From Chloroflexota bacterium (GTDB lineage Bacteria; Chloroflexota; Ktedonobacteria; Ktedonobacterales; Ktedonobacteraceae), in assembly GCA_902810755.1 (NCBI GenBank), contig CADDYT010000168.1:1-13131 (forward strand): DNA of 13,131 bases, written 5' to 3'. The position numbers and the translations under genes are program-made. The notes beneath the pieces are model-generated. The model searched no databases and was not told the origin of the DNA. It saw only the letters and a list, made by a program, of their open reading frames with translations. This document shows positions 561 through 8,679 of the stretch, piece by piece. The first letter of the stretch is position 1, and every line of letters begins with the position of its first letter.

Positions 561-604
561 TTCAGCATTTTTTCAGTTCCCATGCGCTGAATATTCAGCG
601 AACT
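561..604 (+). promoter_or_regulatory. Direct-repeat operator A (TTCAG, 11-bp period) upstream of the decarboxylase operon
   Basis: TTCAG occurs at 561, 572 and 594, exactly 0, +11 and +33, so all copies lie on one face of the helix. The skipped slot at 583 holds the inverted half CGCTGAA. The final copy, TTCAGCGAA, is identical to two copies upstream of the response-regulator gene at 5534-5515. Spaced direct repeats of about 11 bp are the usual target of OmpR/PhoB-family dimers. The last copy ends 57 bases before the chosen ATG at 660, so it could sit at or next to the -35 region. Binding by the regulator encoded in this window is inferred. Confidence 0.55.
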
Positions 605-641
605 GTGGCATCATCTTCTTATCAGAGAAGCACAGTGATAA

Positions 642-649
642 GAGGTGAT
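642..649 (+). promoter_or_regulatory. Ribosome binding site deciding the decarboxylase start
   Basis: GAGGTGAT matches eight bases of the anti-Shine-Dalgarno complement AGGAGGTGATC. It lies 10 bases before ATG 660 but overlaps the in-frame GTG 645 and ATG 648, so it can only serve the 660 start. Confidence 0.75.
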
Positions 650-659
650 GCAAAACAGA

Positions 660-2177
660 ATGAATCTCATAGATACATCTGAGAAAAACGAAGCACGGGC
701 TGCGCGGGAAGAAACGACCCGCGCGGGCCAGCTCTCTTTTGATGAACTATCTTTGCGGCGCTACGGCTATCAGATTATGGACGAGGTGACTGCCTATCTG
801 GGCGGCATTGCGGAACGGCCCGTGTGGCAGCCGGTGCCGGAGAGTGTGCGCGAGGAGATTCTCACGCAGGAACTGCCGCGCCAGGGATATCCCTTTGAGG
901 AGACGCTGGCCTTTCTGCGCGAGCTGATCCTGCCCTACCCGCAGGGAAACGGGCATCCGCGCTTCGCAGGCTGGATCAACTCGGCCCCGGCGCACGCGGC
1001 CATCTTGATGAAGCCACTGGCGGCGGCCATGAATCCCAACTGTGGCATTGGCGACCACACAGGGCAGGAACTGGAACGGCGTACCGTGCAATGGCTGATG
1101 GAACTCTGTGGCTTTCCGGTCGAGGGCAGCGCGGGCGTCTTCGTCAGCGGTGGCTCCGAGGCACAATTTACCTGCCTGCAGGCTGCTCGCTATTGGGCGG
1201 CTCAACAGGATGGCTGGAACATACGCAAAGAAGGTTTGCAGGGCGCGCATGCGCCTTTTGTGCTTTACCAGTCCGATCAGGGCCATTTCAGCATTCGTCG
1301 CTCGGTCGAGGCAATGGGGCTGGGCAGCGACGCGATTCATATTGTTCCATCCACGCCGAGCTATCAGATGGATGTGCAGCAACTCGCCCGGCGCATAGCG
1401 GAAGATCGAGCGGCAGGTATGCGCCCGTTCTGTGTTGTAGCGAGCGCCGGAACGGTCGAGACGGGAGCCATCGATCCGCTGACCGAACTGGCCGATCTCT
1501 GTGAGGAGCAGGGGCTATGGCTGCACGTGGATGGCTGCTACGGGGCGGTTGGCATACTGGATAAGCAGGTTGCGCCCCTTTATAAAGGCATGGAGCGGGT
1601 CGATTCTCTTGCCACCGATCAACATAAATGGCTGTCTGTGCCGATTGACTGTGGCTGCGCGCTGGTGCGGCATGGCGAGGTGTTGCATGATACATTCCGC
1701 CTGAAGCCACCGGGCGAGGATGAACACGAATACTGGATGTCCGAATTTACCTTGCAGCGCACGCGCCGTTTCCGCGCGCTCGATGTCTGGACGGTCTTGC
1801 GTACCGCCGGACGCGAGGGGCTGGCGCGGGCAATTACCGGCAACATTGAGATGGCGCGGCTGCTGGCAAGGCTGATCGAGACCGAACCTGCGCTGGAACT
1901 GGTGGCGAGTGGGCCACTGAGTATTGTGCGTTTCCGCTACGTTCCATCCATGTTCAAAGATGAGCCGCACCTGCTTGACCGGCTGAACGGGGAACTGGCC
2001 CGTGAGATACAGCGGCGCGGCAGGGCCTTTTTCACTTCCACTCGCTTTCAAAACAAAGAAGTGCTGCGTGCCTGCCTGGTCAACTACATGACGAACGAGA
2101 CAGATATCTACTCCATGTTCGATGAGATTCTCCGCGCGGGAGAATCTCTGCTCTCGCGCTATGGAGAAAGGAGCTAA
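660..2177 (+). CDS. Group II pyridoxal-phosphate-dependent amino acid decarboxylase
   Basis: A 505-residue cytoplasmic enzyme of the group II PLP decarboxylases (aromatic amino acid, glutamate and cysteine-sulfinate/cysteate decarboxylases), which convert an L-amino acid to its amine plus CO2. Landmarks are the phosphate-binding SGGSEA (163-168), a His that can stack on PLP in QGHFS (His209), SAGTVETGAIDPL (262-274), HVDGCYG with Asp291 for the pyridine nitrogen, and TDQHKW with the Schiff-base lysine Lys323. Length is normal for the family. The HKWLSVPIDCG context resembles the broad bacterial DAHKWLNVPYDCG subgroup rather than typical glutamate decarboxylases, so the substrate cannot be named. 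ATG 660 is chosen because a near-perfect Shine-Dalgarno sits 10 bases upstream. The stop overlaps the next gene's first possible start by one base (TAATG), indicating a co-transcribed pair with the CysM-like synthase. Confidence 0.88.
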   Translation: MNLIDTSEKNEARAAREETTRAGQLSFDELSLRRYGYQIMDEVTAYLGGIAERPVWQPVPESVREEILTQELPRQGYPFEETLAFLRELILPYPQGNGHPRFAGWINSAPAHAAILMKPLAAAMNPNCGIGDHTGQELERRTVQWLMELCGFPVEGSAGVFVSGGSEAQFTCLQAARYWAAQQDGWNIRKEGLQGAHAPFVLYQSDQGHFSIRRSVEAMGLGSDAIHIVPSTPSYQMDVQQLARRIAEDRAAGMRPFCVVASAGTVETGAIDPLTELADLCEEQGLWLHVDGCYGAVGILDKQVAPLYKGMERVDSLATDQHKWLSVPIDCGCALVRHGEVLHDTFRLKPPGEDEHEYWMSEFTLQRTRRFRALDVWTVLRTAGREGLARAITGNIEMARLLARLIETEPALELVASGPLSIVRFRYVPSMFKDEPHLLDRLNGELAREIQRRGRAFFTSTRFQNKEVLRACLVNYMTNETDIYSMFDEILRAGESLLSRYGERS

Positions 2178-2182
2178 TGCAC

Positions 2183-3109
2183 ATGTATTATCATGATGTG
2201 TTGGAGACGATTGGCAATACGCCGCTGGTCGAGCTGAAAAGTTTTAGTCCGCGTCCGGCTGTGCAGATTTTCGCGAAACTGGAAGGCGTCAATCCATCGG
2301 GCAGCCTGAAGGATCGCATTGCCAGGAAGATGATCGAGCAGGCAGAAGCGCAGCGGTTGCTGAAAAAGGGAAGCATCTTGCTGGAGCCGACCAGCGGCAA
2401 TACGGGGCTGGCGCTGGCCTTGGTTGCGAGCATGAAGGGCTATCGTTTCACCGCCGTTGTCTCCGACAAAGGGACGCAGGACAAGCGCAGGATGCTGGAA
2501 CTCTACGGCGCGACCATCATCACTTCTCCGGGTGCCGCTGGCAGCAATGGGGCGATCCGGCTGGCGCAGGAGATTGTGCAGCAGGATAAACGCTATGTCA
2601 TGCTCTACCAGTATGGCAACGAAGCGAACCCGCAGGCGCACTATGAGACGACCGGCGTTGAAATTGTGCGCGATATGCCAGACCTCGATCTGCTGGTCGC
2701 CGGACTGGGAACGGGCGGCACGCTCACCGGCATTGGTCGCCGCCTGAAGGAACACAACCCCGCCATTCGTGTGGTCGCGGCAGAGCCGGTGCAAGGCGAA
2801 AGTATTCAGGGGTTGCGCAACCTTGCCGACGGTTTTGTGCCGCCCGTCCTCGATCAATCGCTGCTGGAGAGTCGTGTTCTTGTATCGAGCAAGCAGGCAT
2901 GGGCGCGCACGCTCCAGTTGAAGGAACACGAAGGCATCTTCGCCGGCCCCTCAAGCGGCGCCGTTCTCGACGTGGCGTTGCGCTATGCCGCCCGCATGGA
3001 AAAGGGAAAAATCGTGATTATTCTGGCCGATGGCGGCTGGAAGTACCTGAGCGAGCAGCACTGGACGGCGCAGCCGGAGGAGACGGTCGCCCTGCAACTA
3101 CAACACTGA
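2183..3109 (+). CDS. cysM: CysM-like cysteine synthase / O-phosphoserine sulfhydrylase (PLP fold type II)
   Basis: A 308-residue PLP beta-substitution enzyme. Landmarks are the N-terminal TIGNTPLVEL, GSLKDR with the PLP lysine (Lys43), the phosphate/substrate loop EPTSGNTG, GLGTGGTLTG for the cofactor phosphate, and a C-terminal ADGGWKYLS. From memory of the M. tuberculosis CysM sequence, the resemblance is unusually close: LYQYGN, HY, GFVP and the arginine in the LRN motif (here Arg212, TB Arg220), which in the TB enzyme selects O-phospho-L-serine. That suggests an O-phosphoserine rather than O-acetylserine donor. Start 2183 is preferred over 2177 because AGGAG at 2169-2173 is about 10 bases from it. 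No CysO-type sulfur carrier or Mec protease gene is present in the window. Pairing with a decarboxylase suggests a specialised product (an amine made from a beta-substituted alanine) rather than bulk cysteine synthesis; that part is inference. Confidence 0.85.
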   Translation: MYYHDVLETIGNTPLVELKSFSPRPAVQIFAKLEGVNPSGSLKDRIARKMIEQAEAQRLLKKGSILLEPTSGNTGLALALVASMKGYRFTAVVSDKGTQDKRRMLELYGATIITSPGAAGSNGAIRLAQEIVQQDKRYVMLYQYGNEANPQAHYETTGVEIVRDMPDLDLLVAGLGTGGTLTGIGRRLKEHNPAIRVVAAEPVQGESIQGLRNLADGFVPPVLDQSLLESRVLVSSKQAWARTLQLKEHEGIFAGPSSGAVLDVALRYAARMEKGKIVIILADGGWKYLSEQHWTAQPEETVALQLQH

Positions 3110-3152
3110 CTTTCACCCCCCATCTTATGCCTGTCTCGCATGACCCTGCTGG

Positions 3153-3200
3153 CTGCCGGTAGTACAACGGCGTTCTATCGCGTAGTCGGCAGGGTTTCTT
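3153..3200 (+). terminator. Possible weak terminator between convergent operons
   Basis: CTGCCG (3153-3158) can pair with CGGCAG (3187-3192), or alternatively CCCTGC (3144-3149) with GCAGGG (3189-3194). Either is followed by GTTTCTTG. The gap lies between the stops of two convergent operons, where a terminator is expected, but the loop is long and the T tract poor. Confidence 0.25.
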
Positions 3201-3211
3201 GCTCACCGGCC

Positions 3212-4741
3212 TCACGTTCTGATGCAAGCGTATTCCTGTATTTCTTGCCCGACCGGGAAGCGAATGGTGACGGTCGTCCCCTCACCGACCACACTGTTGA
3301 TGGTGATGGCTGCGCCCTGGGCTTCCAGCAACTCTTTTGCGATGGCAAGGCCGAGGCCGCTGCCGCCGACCTGCCGGGACTGGCGACTGCGCGCGGGGTC
3401 TGCCCTGTAGAAGCGATCGAAGACATGCGGTAACGCTTCCGCCGGGATACCCTGGCCGGTGTCTCTGACGCGCATCAGCACCGCGCCCGGCCCATCGCTT
3501 TCGGCGATGATATCGACGCGCCCGCTCGCTGGCGTGAATTTGAGGGCGTTGTCGACAATATTGAGCAAGACCTGTTGCAGGCGATCTTTGTCGGCCTGAA
3601 TGGGCGGAAGGTTGGGGGCGATATCGCTGTGGATTTCCTGTCCGTGCGCCAGGCACTCGGCCTGACTGCATATCGTAGCAATGACCGGCTCGATCTGTAT
3701 AGTATCGCGGCGCAGCGCGATTTTTCCCTCGTCCAGCCGTGTCAGCACCAGCAGGTCTTCAACCAGTCGGTGCATGCGCTGCACCTCGTTATACATGCTG
3801 TGTGCCAGGCGGCGTGATGCATCGGTATCGCCGCGATCAGCGCCGATGAGCAGCATTTCCAGGCTGCCACTCAGAGCGGTCAGGGGGGTGCGCAATTCAT
3901 GGGAAGCGTCGGAGACAAATTGTTTTTGCCGCTTGAAAGTAGCCTCCAGTTTCGCCACCATCTCATTGAAGGAGACGGCCAGGCGGTCGATTTCATCGCC
4001 GGTTGAGGGAGGGTCGATGCGCATGGAGAGGTCGCCCCCGGCAATATGCCGGCTGGTGCCTTCCATCTCCACCAGCGGGCGCAACGCCAGGCCGACCAGC
4101 GGGAAGGTGATGGCTGTGGCAAGAACCAGCACGCAGACGATACCAAAAAAGAAGATCGAACGCAGCGTTGCCAGAAACTGGTCGATGGGGGCCGTTGGGG
4201 TATTCATCTGGAGAATAGCGATAGCGTGATGATTGCTCACCAGTGGCATCAAGGTAACGAGCTGGCGCTGGCCCTGCGCATCCCTGATCAGCGTGTAGTT
4301 CATCCCGTTCTGCTCTGCATTCAACAACTGCTGAACGCGCTGCGGTGAAAGCACAATCGGCTGTGGAGCAAGGATAAAGGTGCTGCCGGGGATCAGTACG
4401 GACCCATCGGTTGATAGAATAGCGGCATTGGTCTCTGTACTGGCAAGTTTGAGAACAAGTTCGTTAGCGATCAACTCGAAATTGGCAGGAGGCGGCCCGG
4501 GTGGTGGATTGGAGAAGCGGGCAAGCACGAAAGGACGCCCCTTGATGTCATTGACGGCCAGCCGGGCCTCGTTGTGCAATACATTGACTTCGTTGCTAAA
4601 AAGGACCTGTTCCGCCACCAGCGTAATGGCAACACTCAAGCCGCTGAGCAGCAGCGCCAGCACGCCCAGAGAAACCAGGGTGAGCCGCCAGCGAATGGGG
4701 ATATGTCTGATTATGTCGGAGAGATATTGCCTGCTCCACAT
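3212..4741 (-). CDS. Membrane sensor histidine kinase (HAMP, HisKA, HATPase)
   Basis: A 509-residue class I sensor kinase that autophosphorylates on His and hands phosphate to the response regulator encoded just upstream. Order of parts: cytoplasmic tail, transmembrane helix about 20-46, extracytoplasmic sensor about 47-192 with a proline-rich NPPPGPPP stretch (78-85), transmembrane helix about 194-219, HAMP about 219-272, H-box SHELRTPL with His281, N-box NIVDNALKFT (394-403), D-box DTGQGIP, F-box FDRFYRAD and G2 box GGSGLGLAI. All catalytic boxes are intact. The sensor segment matches no family I recognise, so the signal is unknown. Its ATG follows the regulator stop by only 7 bases, so the two are translated from one mRNA. 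It converges tail to tail with the CysM-like gene. Confidence 0.93.
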   Translation of the reverse strand: MWSRQYLSDIIRHIPIRWRLTLVSLGVLALLLSGLSVAITLVAEQVLFSNEVNVLHNEARLAVNDIKGRPFVLARFSNPPPGPPPANFELIANELVLKLASTETNAAILSTDGSVLIPGSTFILAPQPIVLSPQRVQQLLNAEQNGMNYTLIRDAQGQRQLVTLMPLVSNHHAIAILQMNTPTAPIDQFLATLRSIFFFGIVCVLVLATAITFPLVGLALRPLVEMEGTSRHIAGGDLSMRIDPPSTGDEIDRLAVSFNEMVAKLEATFKRQKQFVSDASHELRTPLTALSGSLEMLLIGADRGDTDASRRLAHSMYNEVQRMHRLVEDLLVLTRLDEGKIALRRDTIQIEPVIATICSQAECLAHGQEIHSDIAPNLPPIQADKDRLQQVLLNIVDNALKFTPASGRVDIIAESDGPGAVLMRVRDTGQGIPAEALPHVFDRFYRADPARSRQSRQVGGSGLGLAIAKELLEAQGAAITINSVVGEGTTVTIRFPVGQEIQEYACIRT

Positions 4742-4748
4742 AGCTCTT

Positions 4749-5450
4749 TCAACCTCGCAGGCTATAGCCGATGCCTCGTACCGTTTGAATCAGGCGCGGC
4801 GGATTGTCATGCAACTTCTCGCGCAGATGACGGATATAGACCTCAATGATATTGTCGTCGCCGAAGTAATCATACCCCCAGACACGCGCCAGAATGGTGT
4901 CGCGGGAAAGGACCTGGCGGGGATTCATCAGAAACAATTCCAGCAGGTCGAATTCACGTGGCGTCAACTCAACTGGCTCACCTGCGCGCGTCACGATGCG
5001 TGTCCCGCGATCCAGTGTGATTTCATGAAAGGTGAGCGTATCCGCCAGGTTGTTGCCATGCCGCCGCAGCACGGCCCGCGTGCGTGCCATCAATTCCTTG
5101 AAGGCAAATGGTTTGGTGACATAATCATCGGCCCCCGTATCCAGTCCGGCCACGCGATCGTCGACGCCATCTCTGGCTGTGAGCATGATAATGGCGGTGT
5201 CATGAAGTCGCTGTATCTGCCGCGTTGCCTCCAATCCATCGAAGCCGGGCAGCATAATGTCCAGAATTACCACATCTGGCTGGTGGGTTGCCACCGCCTG
5301 CACAGCGTCTGGCCCGCTGGTGGCGGCAAATACCTGGAAGCCTTCATACGCGAAGCCCATTTGCAGAAAATCGATAATACCGGGTTCATCATCTACGATC
5401 AACACCACCGGCTGCTTGCTTCCGGCGTTTCTCTCGTCAGGTGTAATCAT
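4749..5450 (-). CDS. OmpR/PhoB-family response regulator
   Basis: A 233-residue two-domain regulator. The receiver domain (about residues 14-128) has the acidic pair Asp20-Asp21, phospho-acceptor Asp64 in VILDIMLPG, Thr91 in MLTARD and Lys113 in VTKPF. The C-terminal winged helix (about 137-232) has LTPREFDLLELF, the VWGYDYFGDD turn and the recognition-helix region VYIRHLREKL, ending in TVRGIGYSLRG. I take ATG 5450 rather than TTG 5459 because AAAGG lies 9 bases upstream of the ATG. It is the first gene of a regulator-kinase operon. Three TTCAG copies at 11-bp spacing lie 40-90 bases upstream, consistent with autoregulation, and the same pattern precedes the decarboxylase operon. Family and architecture are certain; the regulon is inferred. 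Confidence 0.95.
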   Translation of the reverse strand: MITPDERNAGSKQPVVLIVDDEPGIIDFLQMGFAYEGFQVFAATSGPDAVQAVATHQPDVVILDIMLPGFDGLEATRQIQRLHDTAIIMLTARDGVDDRVAGLDTGADDYVTKPFAFKELMARTRAVLRRHGNNLADTLTFHEITLDRGTRIVTRAGEPVELTPREFDLLELFLMNPRQVLSRDTILARVWGYDYFGDDNIIEVYIRHLREKLHDNPPRLIQTVRGIGYSLRG

Positions 5451-5490
5451 CTTTCTCAACCTTTGTCAGCAGGTATCAGGAGAAAACTTT

Positions 5491-5534
5491 TCCTTCCTGA
5501 AAGGTATACCAAACTTCGCTGAAATTTCGCTGAA
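5491..5534 (-). promoter_or_regulatory. Direct-repeat operator B upstream of the response-regulator gene
   Basis: On the minus strand TTCAG starts at 5534, 5523 and 5501 (0, +11, +33), and the first two copies are the identical nonamer TTCAGCGAA. The slot at 5512 is degenerate. Spacing and one 9-base word match operator A upstream of the decarboxylase. The proximal copy lies about 45 bases before the regulator ATG, close to where a -35 element would be. Autoregulation by the encoded OmpR-type protein is the natural inference. Confidence 0.6.
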
Positions 5535-5687
5535 TATGGCAGACTTTCCAACCCTTGCTACTTCTATCTGTAACAAACAAATCTCAAAAAACTTCGAGGA
5601 ATTTGTAAAGATTCTGTATCCTTTTCCCATTATCAGCGAACGCTGCCTGCTCGCGTGGCGCGCTGAAACAGGGTCTCGTTGGCCTGT

Positions 5688-5703
5688 GAGGGCGCGCGCC
5701 CTC
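5688..5703. repeat. Perfect 16-bp GC-rich palindrome
   Basis: GAGGGCGCGCGCCCTC reads the same on both strands with no spacer. It sits 8 bases upstream of operator C, so it could be a second regulator site for the ligase promoter. Without a spacer or T tract it is not a normal terminator. Confidence 0.5.
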
Positions 5704-5710
5704 TTCCTGA

Positions 5711-5753
5711 TTCAGCAAGTTTTCAGCCACGTTCCCCTATTTTTCAGAATGGT
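5711..5753 (+). promoter_or_regulatory. Candidate direct-repeat operator C upstream of the acyl-CoA ligase operon
   Basis: TTCAG occurs at 5711, 5722 and 5743 on the plus strand (0, +11, +32). The first two keep the 11-bp step seen in operators A and B; the third is one base short of +33. It is therefore a weaker match, but three copies in 37 bases is well above chance for a pentamer. A TGCTAAGGT extended -10-like word follows at 5755-5763. Confidence 0.4.
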
Positions 5754-5789
5754 GTGCTAAGGTCAGGGGCAAGAATATCACACGATCAG

Positions 5790-5846
5790 TCTTATGCTGA
5801 GTGTAGCGAGGGGGGTCGCAGATGCTTCGCTGCACTCAGCATGAGA
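5790..5846. repeat. Interspersed palindromic repeat, copy 1
   Basis: The left arm (5790-5809, containing ATGCTGAGTGTAGCGA) pairs with the right arm (5827-5846, containing TCGCTGCACTCAGCAT) over 20 bp with two mismatches, around a 17-base loop. A second, longer element with related arms is at 9689-9771. This resembles REP/MITE-like palindromes dispersed in Chloroflexota and other genomes (recalled, not searched). It ends 5 bases before the ligase Shine-Dalgarno, so it would form a hairpin in that gene's leader. Confidence 0.75.
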
Positions 5847-5851
5847 TGCCT

Positions 5852-5858
5852 GGAGGAG
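5852..5858 (+). promoter_or_regulatory. Ribosome binding site deciding the ligase start
   Basis: GGAGGAG lies 8 bases before ATG 5867. The upstream in-frame ATG 5822 falls inside the palindromic repeat and has no such site. Confidence 0.8.
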
Positions 5859-5866
5859 AAACAGTT

Positions 5867-7402
5867 ATGCTACATCTGGAGAAGCTGCCAGATAGTCGAG
5901 ATCAACTTATTCAGGGGACGCTCTATACCAGTCTGATAAAGTGGGCGGCAGAGCAACCGCAGGCCACATTTCTGGTCGAGGCGGAGACGGGCCGAACATT
6001 GAGCTATGCACAGACGCTGGCCGCCGTCAACAGGATGAGACAGTTTCTTGGCGACGCCTCACATCATATTGTACTGGCCCTGCCCGGTGGCATTATCAAT
6101 GCCGTCCTCTGGTTGAGCGCCTTGAGCGGCGGTCATCACCTCATCCCCGTCTCACCTCAGGCTACTGATAGCGAAAAAGCGACCATAGCTGGCCGACACT
6201 GCCCGGATATCCTGTGCGTGGAACAACGACAGGATGCCATCGGCTTCGCCAGCTCTCACGCGCAGGTGCTGACACGAGATGCCTGTGAGGCATTGCTGAC
6301 CGGGCCAGCCTTTCATGAGATGCTAGATCCCATAGAGGGCTGCGTTTATCTGGGAACATCAGGGACGACGGGCGAGCCAAAAAGCGTGGTGCTGAGCGAG
6401 CGGCAGATGGCGTGGACGGCGGACTCTGTGCGCCGCAGCCACGAACTTTCTCCCCAGGATCGCGGGCTGACCGTGTTGCCATTTTTTCATGTCAACGCGC
6501 CGGTTGTGAGCCTGTGTGCCTCTCTGCTGGCCGGAAGCGCCGTCGTCATCGCCCGGCGCTTTAGCAAACAGCATTTCTGGGAGTGGGTGGAACGCTATCA
6601 GGTGACGTGGGCCAGCGTTGTCCCTGCGATTGTCGCCATCTTGCTGGAAACGCCGCGTCCGGCCTTCCTGCCCGGTTCGCTGCGCTATGTGCGCACCGGC
6701 TCGGCTCCGCTGCCGTCCGCGGACCTCTCCACCTTCGAGGCTCGCTTCGGCGTTCCCGTCATTGAAACCTATGGCTTATCGGAAGCTGCCAGCCAGATCG
6801 TCGCCAACCCCATGCCGCCCGGCGTGCATAAACCTGGATCTGCTGGCCTGCCCGTCGGCGTTGCCCTGCGCATCTGCGCTCCCAGAGATGGAGACGAGCA
6901 GGAATTACGCGATGTGCCACAGGGAGAAGTCGGCGAAATCTGCGTCGCGGGGCCGAGCTTGATCCGCTCCTACCAGTATGACCGGGGCAAAGAATCATTT
7001 CAGGATGGCTGGTTTCGCACCGGCGACCTGGGCTATCTGGATGAAGACGGCTACCTCTTTATCAAGGGTCGCCTGCGTGAGGTGATTAATCGCGGCGGGG
7101 AGAATATTGCGCCGCGCGAGGTCGAAGAAGTGCTTCAGGGCTATCCAGCCGTGCGTGAAGCAGCGGTCGTCGGTAGGCCTGACCCCATTTATGGCGAACA
7201 GGTCGTCGCCTACCTCACGGTGCGCGAGAACTGGCAAGAAGAGAGTGTACAGCAACTGCGCAACTATCTCACGCATCATCTGAGTCCGCAGAAGATTCCC
7301 GTTGACTTCATCGTACTCGATGAACTGCCGAAAAACGCTACGGGCAAAATCGAACGCCGCCTGCTGCGCGCCCGCGAACAGGCACATTATGGTCAACGCT
7401 AG
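5867..7402 (+). CDS. AMP-forming acyl-CoA ligase / acyl-activating enzyme
   Basis: A 511-residue adenylate-forming enzyme (ANL superfamily) that activates a carboxylic acid with ATP and usually transfers it to CoA. Motifs in order are the P-loop-like GTSGTTGEPK (163-172), FFHVNAPVVSL (206-216), ETYGLSEAAS (300-309), GWFRTGDLGYLDEDGY (381-396), the hinge GRLREVINRGGENI (401-414) and LPKNATGKIERR with the catalytic Lys494. All core motifs are intact and no carrier-protein or condensation domain is attached, so it is free-standing. The FHVN region resembles CaiC and oxalate/medium-chain ligase types, but the acid cannot be predicted. The start is set by GGAGGAG at 5852. The next gene, a membrane acyltransferase, begins 29 bases after the stop, suggesting that the activated acid is passed to it. 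The promoter region carries candidate operator C. Confidence 0.92.
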   Translation: MLHLEKLPDSRDQLIQGTLYTSLIKWAAEQPQATFLVEAETGRTLSYAQTLAAVNRMRQFLGDASHHIVLALPGGIINAVLWLSALSGGHHLIPVSPQATDSEKATIAGRHCPDILCVEQRQDAIGFASSHAQVLTRDACEALLTGPAFHEMLDPIEGCVYLGTSGTTGEPKSVVLSERQMAWTADSVRRSHELSPQDRGLTVLPFFHVNAPVVSLCASLLAGSAVVIARRFSKQHFWEWVERYQVTWASVVPAIVAILLETPRPAFLPGSLRYVRTGSAPLPSADLSTFEARFGVPVIETYGLSEAASQIVANPMPPGVHKPGSAGLPVGVALRICAPRDGDEQELRDVPQGEVGEICVAGPSLIRSYQYDRGKESFQDGWFRTGDLGYLDEDGYLFIKGRLREVINRGGENIAPREVEEVLQGYPAVREAAVVGRPDPIYGEQVVAYLTVRENWQEESVQQLRNYLTHHLSPQKIPVDFIVLDELPKNATGKIERRLLRAREQAHYGQR

Positions 7403-7431: not shown

Positions 7432-8679
7432 ATGGCACAGGTAGCTCAAACGCAGGGGAAGCGCCCGCATATCTACGAACTGGACCCGCTGCGTATCTGC
7501 ACGGCGGTGAGCGTGGTAGGCGTGCATGTCCTCTTCTATACGCTTCCTCTCAACTCGTCGGCGACGGGATTGCAGGTTCAAAACGCTTTTATCACCGCGC
7601 TGCATTTTACCAGGGAGGTCTTCATTTTTGTCACCGCCTTTGCCCTGGTCTATGTCTATTATGGCAAACCGTTTCCGCTCAAACAGTTCTGGCAGAAACG
7701 CAGCATCGGCGTCCTGCTGCCCTACGCTGTCTGGAGCGTCGTCTACGTCTGGGTCAATATGCCCGACAAAACGCCGCTAACGTTTCTACATACCTCTTTC
7801 ATCGATATCCTGACCGGCAATGCATCGTACCAGCTCTACTACATCCTGCTCACCCTGCAATTTTATCTCATCTTCCCGCTGTTTTTGCTCTTCCTGCGCC
7901 GCTGCGCCTCTCACCCCTGGATCGTGCTGTCCATCAGCTTCGTCTTGCAGCTCATCCTGTTTTACTTCGATTACCACACGCTCCAGCAGGGAACGCTGGC
8001 CTCCTCACCCTTCTGGCAGACGTTTTCTGAGTTTCAGAATCGCTTCGTGCTGGTCTACCAGTTCTACTTTGTACTGGGCGGGTTTACCGCGCTCTACTTT
8101 CAGCAGGTGCGTGCAATCCTGCTGCGGCATGGCAGGCTCATCGCTGCGTCCTTCCTGCTGGTGCTGGCCGCGTTATGGCTCCACTTTTTCATCCAGGTGA
8201 ATGTCTACCATGAATCCATCGGCTATGCCACCTCGGTTTTGCAGCCGGCGATGGTCTTTTACAGCGTGGCCATCGTCTTCTTCGGCCTCTGGCTTACGGC
8301 GCGCTGGGCCAGCAAGACAGGCCCGGATAAACGTCCGCGCGGCTACCGCTTCTGGCAAGTCCTCTCAGATTCATCCTTCGGCGTCTACCTTATTCATGCC
8401 CTCCTGATAACCGCTCTCCTGCGCTGGATTGTACCCGCGATGCCCACCACCTGGTTCACGGCGGTGCGCGTCCTCCTTAGCTGGCTATTTGTAGCAGCGG
8501 GGGCTACCGCCATCACCATTCTTCTGCTTAACATCCCCATTGCCAGCCGCCTCGTCGGTCGCAAGGCAAGCTGGCAGCGCAAGCGGGAGAAAACGCAGCA
8601 ACAAGAACAGGCAACAATGCAACCCGCGAACAACCCGGAGGTGGCTGTGCAGGTCTCGGCAAGTCGGGACAGCAGGTAA
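7432..8679 (+). CDS. Integral membrane acyltransferase, acyltransferase-3 family
   Basis: A 415-residue polytopic protein of the acyltransferase-3 family (OafA/WecH type), which moves acyl groups onto sugars, lipids or other envelope molecules. The diagnostic start ELDPLRICTAVSVVGVHVLF places the conserved Arg21 and the likely catalytic His32 in the first membrane helix. About ten hydrophobic helices follow, with FIFVTAFALVY in helix 2 and FGVYLIHALLI near the C-terminal end. The last 45 or so residues are a polar, Gln/Lys/Arg-rich cytoplasmic tail. AGGGAAA at 7420-7426 serves the ATG. It is co-directional with the acyl-CoA ligase 29 bases upstream and probably in the same mRNA. Acceptor and donor are unknown; use of the ligase product is an inference. 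Confidence 0.87.
   Translation: MAQVAQTQGKRPHIYELDPLRICTAVSVVGVHVLFYTLPLNSSATGLQVQNAFITALHFTREVFIFVTAFALVYVYYGKPFPLKQFWQKRSIGVLLPYAVWSVVYVWVNMPDKTPLTFLHTSFIDILTGNASYQLYYILLTLQFYLIFPLFLLFLRRCASHPWIVLSISFVLQLILFYFDYHTLQQGTLASSPFWQTFSEFQNRFVLVYQFYFVLGGFTALYFQQVRAILLRHGRLIAASFLLVLAALWLHFFIQVNVYHESIGYATSVLQPAMVFYSVAIVFFGLWLTARWASKTGPDKRPRGYRFWQVLSDSSFGVYLIHALLITALLRWIVPAMPTTWFTAVRVLLSWLFVAAGATAITILLLNIPIASRLVGRKASWQRKREKTQQQEQATMQPANNPEVAVQVSASRDSR

Follow-up and report, generated by a model that had tools for sequence, protein, structure and literature searches.

What is the role of the phased repeats that precede three operons in a 13,131-nucleotide stretch of DNA from a Chloroflexota bacterium of the family Ktedonobacteraceae (contig CADDYT010000168.1 of assembly GCA_902810755.1; hereafter, the window)? 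Copies of the pentamer TTCAG, with a period of about 11 bp, lie in front of a decarboxylase operon (array A), an operon for an OmpR/PhoB-type response regulator (array B) and an acyl-CoA ligase operon (array C), and an earlier note on this DNA had read them as the operators of a local regulon. We found that these arrays are real, non-random and conserved, and that they are very probably docking sites of the neighbouring regulator.

The nine copies of TTCAG occur at the places and on the strands given in that note: at 561, 572 and 594 in array A (561..598, plus strand), at 5534, 5523 and 5501 around array B (minus strand), and at 5711, 5722 and 5743 in array C (5711..5747, plus strand). Relative to the first copy, this corresponds to slots 0, +11 and +33 in A, where slot +22 is degenerate, and to 0, +11 and +32 in C. 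The nonamer said to be common to A and B, TTCAGCGAA, was also found, at 594-602 (plus) and at 5534-5526 and 5523-5515 (minus). When all pentamers except single-letter runs were examined on both strands of the window, only TTCAG formed triples at 0/+11/+32-33, and it did so three times; allowing third positions from +31 to +35, with all pentamers included, returned the same three triples and no others. Conversely, 1000 dinucleotide shuffles contained a mean of 0.084 triples of any pentamer, none of them having three triples, two triples of one pentamer or a TTCAG triple, and we thus rejected a chance cluster, in agreement with the claim that phased triples at three promoters are not random. TTCAG itself is mildly over-represented in the window (36 copies versus 26.9 expected, with 6 of 200 shuffles equally high); it is the 11-bp phasing, and not the abundance of the pentamer, that carries the signal.

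All three arrays stand at a fixed distance from a predicted -10 box. This box lies exactly 10 bp past the proximal TTCAG in A (CATCAT, 609..614, plus strand), 10 bp past the proximal TTCAG in C (TAAGGT, 5758..5763, plus strand) and 10 bp past the second TTCAG in B, the promoter of the regulator itself (TATACC, 5503..5508, minus strand). The same arrangement, a proximal pentamer (TTCAG or TTCAA, with TTCA required) followed by exactly 10 bases (N10) and the motif.A...T, was present in 21 of 21 aligned arrays. It was also recovered without any -10 sequence in the query, since.A...T occurred at N10 in 24 of 31 distinct exact arrays versus 0 to 5 when any of the other offsets between 3 and 19 was taken. 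TA occupies N10 in window B and in all 11 related two-box promoters, and the strict form TANNNT was found there in three of the eight two-box promoters tested. Because the -10 lies at N10 in both cases, the second box of B is the counterpart of the proximal, third TTCAG of A and C. The remaining TTCAG of B (5497..5501, minus strand) falls just behind the -10, 3' of it, is absent from all 11 related two-box promoters and is probably no operator half-site. Therefore, the proposal of a three-copy array at each promoter held for A and C and failed for B, which is predicted to be a two-box operator (5519..5534, minus strand), and a single conserved three-box operator at all three promoters was discarded. 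Direct repeats with a period of about 11 bp, found at A, B, C and their counterparts, are as expected of OmpR/PhoB operators, and a short, fixed distance from operator to -10 is as expected of class II activation of the PhoB/PhoP type. PhoB sites replace the -35 element.

To place the arrays in a wider context, genome-wide tests were done in 47 genomes of the class of Ktedonosporobacter rubrisoli (G001; G, C and L numbers are our handles for genomes, contigs and loci), using the exact pattern TTCAG-N6-TTCAG-N16-18-TTCAG and a sequence-only profile (R1) built from 21 arrays of our choice, one to three per genome and two of them from the window. In the class-wide profile search, filtering was stricter and up to 107 candidates were scored per genome, and a phylum search scored 20 candidates per genome in 251 evenly drawn Chloroflexota genomes, class members included; weak sites can be missed in both. 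The expectation that arrays would be rare elsewhere was borne out, with 35 exact matches in the 47 genomes as compared with two for a mirror-pattern control. Versions spaced by 10 and 12 bp yielded two and four matches, respectively, and both 10-bp matches lie, by eye, in short tandem repeats.

The distribution of the arrays follows that of the regulator, orthologues of which (62-80% identity) were found in 24 of the 47 genomes. The exact pattern occurs in 19 of these 24 genomes and in 3 of the 23 without an orthologue (Fisher 6.5e-6). With the profile at E<=1e-3, the corresponding figures were 24 of 24 and 1 of 23 (G035; Fisher 1.6e-12), and at E<=1e-5 they were 22 of 24 and 0 of 23; both Fisher values ignore the relatedness of the genomes. 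At E<=0.1, weak matches appeared also in the regulator-less G009, G019, G020, G029 and G033. Four genomes of the phylum sample outside the 47 matched at E<=1e-3 (G054, G180, G216 and G229; best value 9.9e-5), and none did at 1e-5.

Every one of the 24 genomes with an orthologue has an array upstream of the regulator gene. A two-box site directly precedes the gene in 11 of them (G002, G003, G004, G007, G026 and G041-G046), and a three-box array precedes the gene or its operon in 10 (G006, G008, G010, G013, G018, G021, G022, G036, G038 and G039). In nine of these ten, G018 being the exception, a DUF5666 gene lies between the three-box array and the regulator, identified by Pfam in G006, G008, G010, G013, G021, G022 and G039 and by 94-95% identity to the G039 proteins in G036 and G038. 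The distance from array to regulator is up to about 1.5 kb, except in G013 (about 2.6 kb), and the arrays of G008 and G013 carry mismatches and were detected by the profile alone (E 6.6e-5 and 2.0e-4). The nearest relatives of the window regulator among 80 retained loci belong to the Chloroflexota, and to the Ktedonobacteria wherever they are named to class, with identities of 67-79% for L001-L008 and up to 47% for the rest. One genome also contains a broken copy of the regulator, with one internal stop, about 6 kb from a broken decarboxylase copy with internal stops (L161, G038:C7), its intact orthologue being elsewhere in the genome.

Comparison of the upstream DNA of relatives confirmed that the repeats are conserved in front of orthologous ligase and decarboxylase genes, as well as of the regulator gene. 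A TTCAG array precedes the ligase-acyltransferase operon, or a lone acyltransferase, in 14 of the 23 class genomes that keep the acyltransferase (G001-G005, G021, G026, G035:C625 and G041-G046), so array C is not the weakest of the three, as had been supposed. The acyltransferase is alone behind the array in G003 and G035:C625, a gene for a major facilitator superfamily (MFS) transporter comes first in the array-headed ligase operon of G001 and G005, and the +32 spacing of C recurs in G003 and G037. In G010, the array lies 1.4 kb upstream of the ligase operon, with another reading frame intervening, and G008 and G022 have a TTCAGG-type array at this operon. A decarboxylase of at least 69% identity was found in 13 genomes and is directly preceded by an array in seven (G001 and G041-G046). 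A two-mismatch array precedes it in G037, with one FAD-binding gene between. In G026 and G004 the decarboxylase is one of the genes of the ligase operon, at the head of which an array stands; in G035 it follows the ligase and acyltransferase, and the contig ends before the promoter. Seven distant homologues of the decarboxylase (44-53%; in G001, G025, G031, G035, G037, G038 and G039) had no array at up to one mismatch, and that of G001 has a two-mismatch match. Contrary to the earlier note, the regulon is not strictly local, because the decarboxylase array of K. rubrisoli lies about 1.8 Mb from the regulator.

Which protein, then, would bind the arrays? The window regulator (4749..5459, minus strand; an in-frame ATG at 5450 is also possible) consists of a receiver and a C-terminal winged-helix domain (Response_reg, 1.4e-30; Trans_reg_C, 4.4e-30), the architecture of the OmpR/PhoB family. 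As is usual for a cognate pair in this family, it is directly followed, apparently in the same operon (B), by the gene for a sensor histidine kinase with HAMP, HisKA and HATPase_c domains (3212..4741, minus strand), and a kinase homologue lies directly 3' of the regulator in all of 28 loci except L155 and L161. In a tree that leaves out near copies (L143, L146, L148, L154, L157, L158, L209, L210, L217 and L222) and the broken L161, the array-adjacent regulators form one clade (23 rows, support 99/96), with 20 array-less sister rows on the other side. For 24 sampled sister regulators, the upstream DNA read (424-655 bases) contained no exact pair of TTCAG and, in a single case (L117), a pair with one mismatch on the opposite strand. 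We accordingly dismissed the idea that OmpR paralogues carry such arrays in general. Co-occurrence, adjacency and clade together single out the window regulator as the leading candidate binder.

Among proteins of solved structure, PhoP of Mycobacterium tuberculosis is closest to this regulator (E about 6e-60); we take its DNA complex to be entry 5ED4. According to PMC4832192, this protein binds TCACAGC-N4-TCACAGC as a tandem dimer and contacts bases through N212, V213, E215, S216, Y217 and Y220. The corresponding six residues of the window regulator are N, I, E, V, Y and H; N212, E215 and Y217 are thus kept, and V213 is changed to I, S216 to V and Y220 to H. Both systems share an 11-bp direct-repeat period, and TTCAGC, the usual half-site, also ends in CAGC; however, it starts with TT where that of PhoP starts with TCA, and nothing points to a shared regulon. 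The place of Y220 is occupied by H throughout the clade (apart from one R, in L152, and L161, where it was not seen), whereas 22 of the 24 sisters have Y and the two sisters with H also have H at the place of Y217; this is suggestive, although not proof.

Two further systems resemble the arrays. The cre/blr-tag of Escherichia coli CreB is given in PMC3660660 as TTCAC-N6-TTCAC, with the same half-site length and spacing and one base of difference from TTCAG, but it belongs to another phylum and other targets. The PHO box is described, in PMC4415409, as two 11-nt direct repeat units bound head-to-tail in tandem, with CTGTCAT in E. coli and GTTCACC in Streptomyces, and in PMC10294691 as strictly spaced from the core promoter. 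The PHO box shares with the window the 11-nt units, the strict core-promoter spacing and the occurrence of single and multiple boxes at different promoters; it differs in the half-site, and there are no phosphate genes among the annotated genes behind the arrays. The regulator fell below the curated cut-offs for CreB (NF008296, 171.2 bits versus 273), PhoB (TIGR02154, 215 versus 296.2) and MtrA (NF040689, 225 versus 300), and all three arrays have the half-site TTCAG and no cre-tag; we therefore rejected these three assignments.

We consider it highly probable that A, B and C are operators of the regulator encoded at 4749-5459, which would bind them as tandem dimers and activate its own operon. 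In the mechanism that we propose, the adjacent histidine kinase would phosphorylate the regulator, each TTCAG would be one half-site, and a pair of half-sites with an 11-bp offset would hold, on the same face of the helix, a single dimer in head-to-tail arrangement. Promoter B would have a single dimer site, the second half-site of which ends 10 bp before the -10, so that the regulator would occupy the -35 region and activate its own operon. At promoters A and C, the same pair would lie two turns further upstream, and 10 bp separate a proximal TTCAG from the -10; there, two tandem dimers would fill slots 0/+11 and +22/+33, slot +22 being degenerate in both arrays. The array of G008, with all four slots near consensus (TTCAG, TTCAG, TTCAC and TTCAG), supports two tandem dimers. 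From the sequences compared, we infer that the regulator binds the arrays and activates, and that it needs phosphorylation for binding.

The same binder might instead be mainly a repressor, its half-sites over the -35 excluding RNA polymerase. The box pair of B and the +22/+33 slots of A and C do cover the -35 region, but an exact 10-bp gap to the -10 would be needed by an activator that touches RNA polymerase and not by a repressor site, and we regard this variant as unlikely. Alternatively, the arrays could serve as operators for another member of the OmpR/PhoB family, encoded at a distant place, with the window regulator as one of its targets. Such candidates abound, since Ktedonobacteria are rich in related regulators (41-193 first-look candidates per genome), and two genomes without an orthologue, G023 and G025, contain TTCAGG-type arrays; however, the co-occurrence with this one clade (24/24 versus 1/23), the adjacency in all 24 genomes and the lack of an exact pair upstream of the sampled sisters make this option quite improbable. 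It is scarcely credible that the repeats have no regulatory role and represent a chance cluster or a dispersed element. The mild excess of TTCAG and a dispersed palindrome nearby (5789-5847) would agree with this, but not the shuffles, the controls with 10- and 12-bp spacing, the conservation of half-sites and not of their flanks, or the recurrence at orthologous promoters in diverged genomes.

Several observations weigh against the window regulator as binder and activator. In G001, G005 and G037 (in G037, at its closest orthologue), the only array upstream of the regulator faces the divergent gene and none points at the regulator gene itself; G035 has profile matches and no regulator orthologue was found there. 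No array was detected at the ligase/acyltransferase homologues of 6 of the 23 genomes (G019, G025, G036, G037, G038 and G039; the operon of G038 was judged from the class-wide profile search alone), so arrays do not occur wherever these homologues do, nor was one found, in the upstream DNA read, before the decarboxylase of G002 (where the contig ends after about 680 bases) or the broken copy of G038. Additionally, G041-G046 are near copies of one lineage, and most of the arrays used to train the profile came from the vicinity of regulator loci, which makes the co-occurrence test of the profile partly circular; this does not apply to the exact-pattern test. Finally, the TTCAGG type of array near other genes means that TTCAG alone is no proof of which regulator binds.

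Arrays of the latter kind, TTCAGGT, occur near unrelated genes in L224 (G003:C9), L203 (G010:C82), L226 (G023:C194), L227 (G025:C1484) and L225 (G026:C4), and are probably the operators of another regulator. Three of the five have.A...T at N10, and in G023 a sister regulator of 50% identity lies within 1.2 kb; the reading frames around those in G003, G023, G025 and G026:C4 showed no common theme by eye. Longer runs of 11-bp TTCAG units in L123 and L139 (G019; TTCAGAGTAGT and TTCAGCGTCAT), which do not have.A...T at N10, appear to be tandem repeats rather than operators.

The remaining genes of the window complete the two outer operons. In operon A, a pyridoxal phosphate (PLP)-dependent decarboxylase (Pyridoxal_deC; 645..2177, plus strand, with an alternative in-frame ATG at 660) is apparently co-transcribed with a cysteine-synthase-like PLP enzyme (PALP; 2177..3109, plus strand), which scored 328.6 bits against the cysKM model, slightly under its cut-off of 344.15. 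Operon C comprises the acyl-CoA ligase (AMP-binding; 5822..7402, plus strand), for which the ATG at 5867, preceded by GGAGGAG, seems the more likely start, and, apparently, a membrane acyltransferase (Acyl_transf_3; 7432..8679, plus strand). Between promoter C and the start codon, the leader of the ligase gene contains a 23-pair hairpin (5789-5847; z -4.9, none of 200 shuffles being equally stable). It looks like a dispersed palindromic repeat, because matches to its right half were found at 32 places in G026, at two in G006 and in none of the remaining 45 class genomes. An esterase-like gene at 164-508 shares 53-64% identity with its relatives, which often lie near the ligase operon. Its frame is closed before 164 and the relative in L001 is longer (349 amino acids), and the gene is read as truncated or frameshifted at the window edge.

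What the regulon does can be approached through the genes behind the arrays in relatives. These include DUF5666 proteins, a PMT_2 glycosyltransferase (G004), a Lipoprotein_15 protein (G007), MFS transporters (G001 and G005), a MalT-like regulator (G039 and G038), acyltransferases, an HtrA-like trypsin-PDZ protease (G018) and an HlyD-type exporter subunit followed by what resembles, by eye, an ABC-type permease (G021). Judged from these family names, there is a hint of what looks like an envelope-stress or surface-remodelling response. The clade of the window regulator has a second member (55% identity) in L220 (G008:C317) and L199 (G022:C89). It is encoded divergently from the ligase-acyltransferase operon, together with an array of TTCAGG type, and the ligase operon has possibly been handed over between paralogues in these two genomes. 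We propose only tentatively, and with more doubt than confidence, the combined picture of a Ktedonobacteria-specific envelope-type two-component regulon, with one dimer site directly before the -10 for self-activation and, at targets, two dimer sites in which the third slot is degenerate. In this picture, the ligase/acyltransferase operon of G008 and G022 would have passed to a same-clade paralogue while the half-sites drifted from TTCAGC to TTCAGG-like sequences.

Among the papers that our literature search covered, none contained TTCAG-N6-TTCAG and, judging by title, none was relevant to regulons or operators of Ktedonobacteria or to envelope-stress regulators of Chloroflexi. The mechanism itself is the well-known one of PhoB/PhoP, an ordinary kind of switch. 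Nevertheless, the regulator-operator pair is sharply defined, with few sites per genome, and can be tested in the cultured K. rubrisoli and Thermosporothrix hazakensis. For the Ktedonobacteria, a little-studied group of large-genome soil Chloroflexota, the exact distance to the -10 provides a rule for recognising promoters. The possible hand-over in G008 and G022, if true, would be a natural case of a regulator and its operator changing together, and may thus serve for studying the joint change of operators and recognition helices.

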